Below, piece by piece: positions 29,581 through 32,513 of a DNA stretch of 41,980 bases. This DNA comes from a virus. Within the stretch, counting starts at the first letter, position 1; every line of letters starts with the position of its first letter. The notes under the pieces are model-generated. The model was not told where the DNA came from. It did no database searches and saw nothing but the letters and a program-made list of their open reading frames with translations. Both the position numbers and the translations under genes were made by a program. The stretch spans positions 1 through 41,980 of the IMG/VR virus record IMGVR_UViG_3300045993_000716. One strand, given 5' to 3'.

Positions 29581-30017
29581 ACCGCCCGCAACTCGAAACC
29601 ATTATCGTTCGCCGCTGTGGGTCACTGGTGGCGCAGGCAGGCTTTACGCTGACGCCGCTGGCCACCAGTGACGACCTCAGCGATCCGATTGACTGGGCGC
29701 TGCGCCAACTTGGCGTGACGCCGGCCGATCCCACCAACCCGAGTAGCGCAGAAGTGGCGCAGATCGCCGCGAGTAACACCGACCGCCTGCTGGACTATAC
29801 CGAACTGCGCGCCCTGGAGAGCGCCGCGACGCGCTACGTCGGAGTCGATGTCACCAGTTCAGGCGAAAGCCGCAGCGACAATCAGATCCGCCAAGCGCTG
29901 ATAACTGCCGTACGCGACAAGCGAGCGCTGATTGAGCGCACCTATGGCATTGTCGCACCGCCATTGGTGCATGGCCGGGTGAACCTGCATTTTCAGGAGA
30001 CCTACCCCGATGCATGA
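29577..30017 (+). CDS. Head-tail connector protein
   Basis: A 146-residue mostly helical protein that starts with GTG overlapping the previous stop. It has DPIDWALRQLGVTPADPTNP and a region with DKRALIERTYGIVAPPLVHG. Its length, helicity and position right after the capsid gene match HK97 gp6-type adaptor proteins. Confidence 0.6.
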   Translation: MNRPQLETIIVRRCGSLVAQAGFTLTPLATSDDLSDPIDWALRQLGVTPADPTNPSSAEVAQIAASNTDRLLDYTELRALESAATRYVGVDVTSSGESRSDNQIRQALITAVRDKRALIERTYGIVAPPLVHGRVNLHFQETYPDA

Positions 30018-30513
30018 TGCTGCCTACCGCTATGTGCAAACGACACAAACCGACATCGATCTGTCGGGCGCACATGTGCTCGAAGTCGGAAGCTACGATG
30101 TGAACGGCAGTATTCGCCCGCTGTTTGCACGGGCGGCGCGCTATCTCGGCATTGATCGGCGCAATGGGCCAGGAGTCGATCAGGCAATCAGCGTACAGGA
30201 GTTTGCTCAAACCCATGCCGCCATCGCCGATCTCGTTGTCAGTTGCGAGGCGCTTGAACACGACCCCGATCCGATTGGGCATCTGGCCGCCATCGCAACC
30301 CTGCTCAAGCCAGGCGGCTACCTGATCCTGACATGTGCCGGGCCGGGGCGCACACCGCATGGCAGCGACGGCGGCGCCCTCCAGCCGGGCGAGCAGTATG
30401 GCAACATCGATCCGCTGTGGCTCGACGAGGTGTTGATGCGCAGCGGCTGGTGGTCGATCAATGTCCAATACGACCCGATTGCGGGCGACACCTATTGCAC
30501 GGCAAGGCGGTAA
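30010..30513 (+). CDS. Class I SAM-dependent methyltransferase in the connector region
   Basis: GGAGA lies 9 bases before the ATG. The 167-residue protein has motif I HVLEVGSYDVNG, an acidic residue after the second strand (GIDRRNG), motif IV ADLVVSCEALEHDPD and motif post-I LKPGGYLILTCAGPG. These identify a Methyltransf_11/23-type enzyme that uses S-adenosylmethionine. The substrate is unknown. It is close to a glycosyltransferase (31467-32513), so methylation of sugars on virion proteins is a fair inference. DNA or protein methylation is not excluded. Confidence 0.85.
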   Translation: MHDAAYRYVQTTQTDIDLSGAHVLEVGSYDVNGSIRPLFARAARYLGIDRRNGPGVDQAISVQEFAQTHAAIADLVVSCEALEHDPDPIGHLAAIATLLKPGGYLILTCAGPGRTPHGSDGGALQPGEQYGNIDPLWLDEVLMRSGWWSINVQYDPIAGDTYCTARR

Positions 30514-30515
30514 TC

Positions 30516-30863
30516 ATGGCACTCAAAACGGGCGGACTGACCGCGTTTCGGGAGGGGTTGACTGGCGTGCTTGACCGCACCATGTTTCGTGCGGCAGGCT
30601 ACGTGCTCGAAATCGCCGATCAGATCGTTCCGGTCGATGAAGGCGATCTCAAATCCAGCGGACGGCGCGAACCCGAGGGCCTGAACGGCAGCGCAGAATA
30701 CCGGGTGGCGTACGGCAATCGCGCCGGGCCGAACAAGTTTGTTGATTATCAGCGCTATGTCGAGTCCGACCAGCCCTATCTCGGTATTGCCGTGCGTGAG
30801 GTGGATATTTCCGCGATTGCCCGCGAGGAACTCGAAGCACTGGCCCGGAAGGTGCGCTCATGA
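30516..30863 (+). CDS. HK97 gp10-like head-tail joining protein
   Basis: The start is the ATG at 30516, three bases after the methyltransferase stop; a longer frame upstream is antisense-like noise. The 115-residue protein has an N-terminal helix, then VPVDEGDLKSSGRREPE, VAYGNRAGPNKFVDYQRYVE and a C-terminal helix. The VD-x-G-x-L-x-x-S segment followed by a beta-sheet with YGN is characteristic of HK97 gp10-type tail completion proteins. Confidence 0.8.
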   Translation: MALKTGGLTAFREGLTGVLDRTMFRAAGYVLEIADQIVPVDEGDLKSSGRREPEGLNGSAEYRVAYGNRAGPNKFVDYQRYVESDQPYLGIAVREVDISAIAREELEALARKVRS

Positions 30864-31285
30864 CCGTTGCCACTGAGCCAGTACTCCCCGTTGCCATCGC
30901 CTTAGCGAGAGCCTATCTGCTGGAGGTGCTTACCCCCATTGTTCCTGATGGTCGTGTGTTCTGGGGGTTGGGCGGCGCCCCCAAGGATATGCCTCGCGTG
31001 ATTATGCAACCCACAAGCGCGGGCAAGGCCATTCGCTACATCGGGCAACCGACCGGATGGGAAGGCGAGATCGCCATCCGGGTGTATGCGCTGACCCTTG
31101 AGGAAGCCGAGGCGCTGCTGCTGCTGATTGCAGCAGGGTTGCCCGCATCGGCAGCCGCAACCGACGCCAACGAAACCGCCTGGGCCATTGGCCTGCACAG
31201 CAGCAAGCCCATTCCCGGCCTCACCGGAGCCGTCGCCGCCGTGGCCGGGATCGCCTACCGCGTGCGTATTGGAGTGACCACATGA
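30860..31285 (+). CDS. Tail terminator or completion protein
   Basis: The ATG overlaps the previous stop. The 141-residue protein has a helix, then strands (VIMQPTSAGKAIRYIG), then IAIRVYALTLEEAEALLLLI, and ends with a strand. This alpha/beta layout and position before the tail tube gene fit tail terminators such as lambda gpU or SPP1 gp17. Sequence-level support is moderate. Confidence 0.6.
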   Translation: MTVATEPVLPVAIALARAYLLEVLTPIVPDGRVFWGLGGAPKDMPRVIMQPTSAGKAIRYIGQPTGWEGEIAIRVYALTLEEAEALLLLIAAGLPASAAATDANETAWAIGLHSSKPIPGLTGAVAAVAGIAYRVRIGVTT

Positions 31286-31470
31286 AACTTGATCAGGCGA
31301 TTGCCGACGCGCACCAGGCCGAAAAGGATCTTGCACGAGCACACGAGGAGGCGCACATGGCGGCCATGGCGTGGTGTACCACGATGGCCAAGCTCGCCCG
31401 CTCGCAATCGCCGCAGCCCAACCGCCATACCCGTCGCGCTGCCAAGCATCGGAAGCAACCACCACGATGA
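31282..31470 (+). CDS. Small basic hypothetical protein
   Basis: A 62-residue product with an N-terminal helix and a very basic tail (NRHTRRAAKHRKQPP). Both ends overlap neighbours as ATGA. It may bind nucleic acid or partner the glycosyltransferase that follows. Family unknown. Confidence 0.55.
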   Translation: MKLDQAIADAHQAEKDLARAHEEAHMAAMAWCTTMAKLARSQSPQPNRHTRRAAKHRKQPPR

Positions 31471-32513
31471 GAGTACTCCCGCCCACGCCACCGCCCGGCC
31501 CGATCCTTGGTCTCTCGATCAAGGCCGACGCCAACTACTACTACCGCACCATCACGCCGTTGCGGGCCGTGACTGGGGCGACGTGGGCGACCTACGAAAG
31601 CGTCACGCCCGAGCAGTTGCATTGCGCGGAAACCGTGATTGTGAACCGGATGGCTGGCCCGGTTGCAGCGATGCAGGCCATGTTCCGTTCGCTGCGCCAG
31701 CAATGGGGCATTCGGCGTATTCTGGTGGACTATGATGATACCTGGCTCGAACCGCACGCGGTGAAAAGCGTGCGCGCCACGGCTGCTGCGGTTGCTGGCG
31801 TGCGGTTTGTGTTGGCGCACTGCGATGGCGTGATTGTGCCGAATCGCGATGCCCAGGCGCACTATGGCGAACATACCGATGCACCCGTCGCCATGGTTCC
31901 CAACCTGCTGTGGCCTAACGATTGGCAGGCGCCAGCCGTGCGCCTCGGCCAACCGCCAATCATCGTGATTGCGGGCAGCCCGAGCCATCGCCACGATTGG
32001 GATCTGGTGGTTCCGGCGCTGATTGCCCTACGCCAGCAGCGCCCCGATGTAGGGTTGCGTGTGCTGGGCTGCCCCCACCCGACCCTGATGGCACTGCGCA
32101 CGGAAGGCCGCGAGTGGACACACGATCTGGCCGAATACGCCGATCTGTTGTCTGGCGCAACCATCGCCCTGTGTCCCCTCCAGGACACGCTGTTCAACCG
32201 CTGCAAGGGCAATGCCAAGCCAGCGGAATACAACCTCGCATCCGGCGCTGCCGTGATTGGTAGTCGGGTGCAGTATGGCGAGATACTCGCAACCGAACGC
32301 GGGATTGTTATCGACGAGGGCGATCCATGGGCGTGGGCACGCGCCATTGACCTCTATCTTCGCAACGAGGCGCGCCGCTACGGCGACGCCTGCGCTCTGC
32401 GTGACTATATTTGCACTGATCTGCATGCGGCGTACTGGCGAGATCAACTGACGCGCATCTACACTATGGAGGAATCGGCATGGCACTCCTCATTGAAGGA
32501 ACAGACGGCCTGA
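31467..32513 (+). CDS. GT-B glycosyltransferase within the virion operon
   Basis: The ATG at 31467 overlaps the previous stop (ATGA), giving 348 residues; the frame is open from 31371. The C-terminal half has the GT4-like layout: IIVIAGSPSHRHDWDLVVPA, LRVLGCPHPTL, and a nucleotide-sugar site IALCPLQDTLFNRCKGNAKP then AEYNLASGAAVIGSRV. It transfers a sugar from an activated donor. The neighbouring methyltransferase and position between tail completion and tail tube genes suggest that the acceptor is a virion protein. Its last 34 bases overlap the tail tube gene. Confidence 0.85.
   Translation: MRVLPPTPPPGPILGLSIKADANYYYRTITPLRAVTGATWATYESVTPEQLHCAETVIVNRMAGPVAAMQAMFRSLRQQWGIRRILVDYDDTWLEPHAVKSVRATAAAVAGVRFVLAHCDGVIVPNRDAQAHYGEHTDAPVAMVPNLLWPNDWQAPAVRLGQPPIIVIAGSPSHRHDWDLVVPALIALRQQRPDVGLRVLGCPHPTLMALRTEGREWTHDLAEYADLLSGATIALCPLQDTLFNRCKGNAKPAEYNLASGAAVIGSRVQYGEILATERGIVIDEGDPWAWARAIDLYLRNEARRYGDACALRDYICTDLHAAYWRDQLTRIYTMEESAWHSSLKEQTA

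Follow-up and report, generated by a model that had tools for sequence, protein, structure and literature searches.

The window, by which we mean the whole stretch analysed, takes in an IMG/VR virus record in full (41,980 bases), and that record may itself be a fragment. Its late genes run from left to right, starting with an amidase gene at 21372 and continuing with the large terminase gene (TerL, 23879; PF04466) and an open frame at 25325 in the portal position, the product of which is 27% identical to its counterpart in L006, a distantly related phage discussed below. A scaffold gene (phrog_2303) also lies among the late genes of the window. The major capsid gene (28273..29352, +) encodes a protein that matches the phrog_3990 major head protein family (5.8e-17) and shares 28% identity with its counterpart in L006. 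After it comes a head-tail connector-like gene (29577..30017, +), which had no family match in the PHROG scan; aligned with gaps, it is 26% identical to the L006 gene at the equivalent position.

The two genes of interest lie in the stretch that follows. A methyltransferase gene (MT; 30010..30513, +) comes first, followed by genes for a neck/gp10-like protein (30516..30863, +; weak matches to phrog_556 and phrog_5, E 0.005-0.03; 32% gapped identity to the L006 neck gene) and a tail-completion-like protein (30860..31285, +; without a family match, 26% gapped identity to the L006 gene in the same place), and by a basic ORF of 62 amino acids (31282..31470, +) without a PHROG match. The glycosyltransferase gene (GT; 31467..32513, +) is thus separated from MT by three genes. 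Beyond it lie a tail-tube-like gene (32480..32911, +), identified by synteny and by 18% identity to an L006 gene that matches the phrog_10528 major tail protein (3e-5), and a tape-measure-like gene (33599..36565, +), identified by length, position and composition; the L006 counterpart of the latter matches the phrog_3779 tape measure (3.4e-6). The labels for the tail-tube, chaperone and tape-measure genes of the window come mainly from synteny with L006, in which a PHROG scan matched the corresponding genes to major tail protein, tail assembly chaperone and tape measure families.

The junctions in this stretch are tight. The end of the connector gene overlaps the start of MT by 8 bp, and the neck gene begins 2 bp after MT; the 62-amino-acid ORF has 4-bp overlaps at both ends, one with the tail-completion gene and one with GT, and the end of GT runs 34 bp into the tail-tube gene. 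The GC content of MT (0.615) and GT (0.628) and their GC3 (0.69 and 0.72) fall within the range of their neighbors, and we found no sigma-70-like promoter between 27000 and 34000. This layout suggests that GT and MT are coexpressed with the virion genes. The initial annotation had described a GT-B glycosyltransferase and a SAM methyltransferase embedded in a head-tail operon; both ORFs proved complete, with Pfam, PHROG and fold matches to the proposed families, and the overlaps of 4 to 34 bp and the 2-bp gap place them within the run of virion genes.

The MT ORF is intact and encodes 167 amino acids. In a Pfam scan, the protein matched PF13489 (Methyltransf_23) with E=1e-8 and 35.5 bits, against a curated cut-off of 27, and it also matched the SAM methyltransferase family phrog_32762 (8.7e-20). 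Its AlphaFold2 model (mean pLDDT 96.4, pTM 0.91) has a Rossmann-type fold, and the solved structures closest to it are UbiG-type class I methyltransferases. Motif I reads EVGSYDVNGS, and residues G27, N32, G33, D49, V56, E80, E83, H84 and H117 are invariant across 24 relatives. The gene therefore encodes a class I SAM-dependent methyltransferase, a member of what we call the phage GSxDVNGSVR family. Neither an N6/N4 (DPPY-type) nor a C5 (PC) DNA-methyltransferase motif was found in its sequence, and no such Pfam match was obtained.

The GT ORF encodes 348 amino acids. It matched PF13692 (Glyco_trans_1_4) at 6.9e-7, with 30.1 bits against a cut-off of 27, and the glycosyltransferase family phrog_7162 at 6.5e-21. 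A search of the PDB with the model (pLDDT 68, pTM 0.70) gave 254 matches at E<=0.001, and those at the top are mostly GT-B enzymes (MshA, SenB, GlgM, PimA and WaaG). GT is thus a GT-B glycosyltransferase of a GT4-like type. Residues conserved among its relatives are D90, D91, G170, K247, K251, E254 and G260. At the catalytic E-x7-E pair that is canonical for retaining GT4 enzymes, the second Glu (E254) is invariant in six relatives, and the first place holds a conserved Lys (K247), not Glu.

How far this arrangement extends beyond the window was asked through MT. Single-sequence IMG/VR scans with the window GT, capsid and terminase gave no usable relatives, and megablast of the window against named phages gave no match. 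A search with a five-sequence MT alignment, in contrast, found at least 462 MT relatives in IMG/VR among the matches listed, the best of these being that of L006, 50% identical over its full length. In a tree of the MT family, the window sequence falls in no small well-supported clade; L006 is its nearest neighbor by path.

L006 belongs to another phage whose capsid is of the same family (PHROG 3990); the portal is 27% and the capsid 28% identical to those of the window. Its genes are ordered capsid, neck, neck, tail-completion, GT, MT, tail tube, chaperone and tape measure. A capsid search added six more records to this lineage; L087 is the same contig as L006. The entire block is kept in L086 (about 96% identical), L087 and L089; in L088 and L091 the start of GT is visible before the contig ends, and L090 and L092 end ahead of the GT/MT slot. 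Between L006 and L086, dN/dS is 0.060 for GT and 0.055 for MT, as low as for the structural genes; both genes of this lineage are under purifying selection.

The L006 lineage has an MT and a GT in the slot between tail completion and tail tube. The pair thus does not stand alone as an insertion, which was one of the outcomes that would have refuted the initial annotation; the same pair near a tail-tube gene in other phages, which that annotation had proposed to look for, is found here. Likeness goes only so far. L006, L086 and L089 share with the window the capsid PHROG, the 50% identical MT and the placement of a GT between the same two genes, whereas their GT belongs to another GT-B family (PF13524/DUF3880, rather than PF13692 as in the window) and adjoins MT, which in the window lies three genes upstream. 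BLASTP detected no similarity between the two GTs. Since MT is 50% identical between lineages in which capsid and portal are only 27 to 28% identical, and the GTs are without detectable homology, MT is the constant partner and GT an exchangeable one. It is likely, but not proven, that MT was inherited vertically together with the capsid.

The GT exchange would also fit a slot for passing cargo, and one could read the pair as a neutral or decaying insertion that is functionless in the window phage; we consider this highly improbable, given that both ORFs are intact, overlap their neighbors and resemble them in base composition, and that the genes of the sister lineage are under purifying selection.

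In all the named or deposited phages examined, which make up five groups, the MT family adjoins GT genes. In Pontimonas phage phiPsal1 (MG835450) the order is capsid, GT1, MT, GT2 and neck; in Synechococcus phage S-CBS4 (NC_016766) it is portal, GT, galactosyltransferase, MT, protease and capsid. MT lies beside a GT in Caudoviricetes ctxSa4, and in megaphage LR745206 the ORFs flanking MT resemble, as judged by eye, a GT11 fucosyltransferase and another GT. In the Streptomyces Zukovirus phages Zuko and KimJongPhill, a GT-MT-GT cluster lies by tRNA genes near the genome end, off the virion genes. Homologues of the window GT itself occur near MT in L068, L079, L025 and L084, contigs that were fetched by MT only.

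Linkage is strongest where it becomes fusion. In L027 (406-4347), a single protein of 1313 amino acids consists of a GT2 domain, a Methyltransf_24 domain, a GT17 domain and an MT of the family found in the window; the second gene after it matches a head-tail connector/portal family. In BFVD, the first and third best matches to the MT model are phage proteins that carry the database names glycosyltransferase 2-like and glycosyltransferase Aah/TibC. Counts across contigs point the same way. Pfam GT families account for 14 to 20 of 168 immediate MT neighbors, compared to 2 of 86 control genes 6 to 9 positions off (Fisher p 0.006-0.05), a modest enrichment that would be weaker if control matches beyond the 25 families shown are GTs; with seeds from the window and named phages only, the enrichment is weak, with 7 matches close to MT and 2 at a distance (p=0.04). 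A GT homologue was found within 3 kb at 23 of 51 representative MT loci, a count that includes many short contigs and for which GTs of certain of the counted loci were among the seeds. Genetic linkage or fusion to glycosyltransferases, a criterion for glycan O-methyltransferases, is found in this family. We know of no sequence signature that sets sugar-hydroxyl methyl transfer apart.

Taken with the operon position, these observations lead us to favor, with some confidence, a reading in which GT and MT form a late, virion-directed sugar-modification module, GT placing a sugar on a late phage protein and MT methylating that sugar. The idea of combined sugar and methyl modification, put forward in the initial annotation, gains support from the MT family lying beside or fused to GTs in unrelated phages. 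We imagine that the GT-B enzyme would take an activated sugar and link it to a phage protein encoded in its own operon, with the head, neck and tail proteins as the most likely acceptors; MT would then O-methylate the attached sugar. Our scans of window proteins turned up no sugar-nucleotide enzyme, so the activated sugar would be made by the host. The result would be a virion bearing a small methylated glycan, and the altered surface chemistry could affect particle stability, adsorption or recognition. Each part of this scheme has its own footing: the sugar as methyl acceptor is suggested by GT linkage and fusion and the virion protein as sugar acceptor by operon position, and the benefit of the putative methylated glycan is our inference.

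That the products of late genes would act on the virion was also the argument of the initial annotation. Here, the late-operon embedding stands in its favor, and it is weakened by the Zukovirus cluster by tRNA genes and by the GTs of mycobacteriophage Maravista near the 3′ genome end; because the Zukovirus cluster sits apart from the virion genes, location does not fix the target. One can therefore envision that the pair instead alters the surface of the host cell (its teichoic acid, lipopolysaccharide or capsule) and blocks readsorption of progeny or superinfection, its place in the late operon being a matter of convenience. The placement of the Zukovirus cluster is what such a role might lead one to expect, phrog_7162 is classed as moron/host takeover, and the envelope enzymes PimA and WaaG are among the GT-B relatives of GT. 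Even so, we regard a host-surface role as rather unlikely, although it is the strongest of the alternatives. The operon partners are late virion genes, expressed when a change of the cell surface would be least useful; the distant L006 lineage keeps the same slot; and unrelated phages, too, have GTs and MT in between their capsid, portal and neck genes. By inspection, neither GT nor MT has an evident membrane anchor.

A second alternative keeps the virion as target and separates the two enzymes: GT would glycosylate a virion protein and MT would methylate a protein side chain or terminus. The three genes between them in the window and the great diversity of acceptors used by class I methyltransferases leave room for this. 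We think it improbable, however, as MT lies beside GTs in all the named or deposited phages examined and is also found fused with GT domains.

Modification of the phage DNA, with glucosylated and/or methylated bases, is the explanation that comes to mind from phages such as T4, in which GTs act on DNA, and the Lar-like protein encoded at 3776-4114 suggests restriction pressure. We give it very little weight and rejected it as a role for the pair. Pfam scans of some 30 window proteins, from a record that may be a fragment, found neither a hydroxymethylase nor a thymidylate-synthase-like enzyme nor any other that would hypermodify bases, in agreement with the initial annotation, which had noted none nearby. 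MT matches Methyltransf_23/11 and UbiG-type structures, not the N6_N4_Mtase or DNA C5 families, and both genes lie within the late module.

Glycosylation of the virion has been demonstrated in few tailed phages. The reading of GT and MT as a virion-directed sugar-modification module can be set beside these and some suspected cases. Mycobacteriophages Che8 and Rita, which, like the window phage, encode their glycosyltransferases, are reported to have glycosylated capsids (Freeman et al. 2023, as cited in PMC11256854). In these phages the acceptor is proven, while the window is known here from its genes alone; in Maravista, kin of phages with glycosylated capsids, GTs lie near the 3′ genome end, and the part of that account concerned with these phages names no methyltransferase (PMC11256854). 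For the Rhodococcus cluster CB phages (Peregrin gp60 and gp49), the authors inferred possibly glycosylated virions from the presence of a GT and an MT (PMC13313380), as we do for the window, although genes 49 and 60 are not adjacent. In chlorovirus PBCV-1, the major capsid protein carries an O-methylated glycan that A064R (GT-GT-MT) and A061L assemble (PMC9614988). The logic is alike, with GT domains and class I methyltransferases leading to an O-methylated capsid glycan and with a GT-GT-MT fusion; the resemblance is one of mode of action, since PBCV-1 is a eukaryotic algal virus, its first GT domain is of the GT-A type and its product is a large N-glycan. Phages phiPsal1 and S-CBS4 share with the window the MT family and a placement of GTs amid the genes for capsid, portal and neck, but each has two GTs and another GT complement, and they too are known from sequence annotation. 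The window pair is a further example of these known or suspected phage sugar coats, not a new type of system.

The breadth of the MT family and its GT fusions were not found described in the phage virion-glycosylation literature that we compared. More tentatively, and on balance somewhat doubtful of it, we suggest that the widespread GSxDVNGSVR family may be a dedicated virion-glycan O-methyltransferase that moves among unrelated tailed phages with swappable, sometimes fused, GTs, so that methylated coats might be common. If the family does mark methylated virion glycans, it would offer a simple sequence marker for them in unrelated phages and, if true, would also have a bearing on the interaction of phage particles with host cells. 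Cultivated phages that carry the pair, such as Streptomyces Zukovirus and Synechococcus S-CBS4, make the question open to direct mass spectrometry.

The initial annotation was framed around actinobacterial phages. That framing is without support because no host could be assigned: GTDB genome scans with the terminase and a capsid alignment found no host or prophage relatives, and the large serine recombinase encoded at 6096-7583 (-; PF00239, PF07508 and PF13408), at 27 to 29% identity to phages of many hosts, gives no host signal. The presence of this recombinase makes the window phage probably temperate.

Other features deserve mention. In the late region of the related contig L010 (11936-13962), a gene for a GDP-mannose-dehydratase-like epimerase stands immediately before a GT gene, and this phage may make its own activated sugar. 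In the window, the product of 37851-39428 is a virion protein that is LamG/concanavalin-like in its N-terminal region and has some dozen 18-amino-acid tandem repeats rich in Thr, Ser and Gly (GTLTGSGALVKQ...), a possible candidate acceptor for O-glycosylation. The early region of this tailed phage encodes an FtsK/TrwB/HerA-like ATPase with weak family matches (2171-3604, -). The gene for the Lar-like restriction-alleviation zinc ribbon (3776-4114, -; 5.4e-6, just below the cut-off) is adjoined by an ASCH-domain gene (4096-4590, -).
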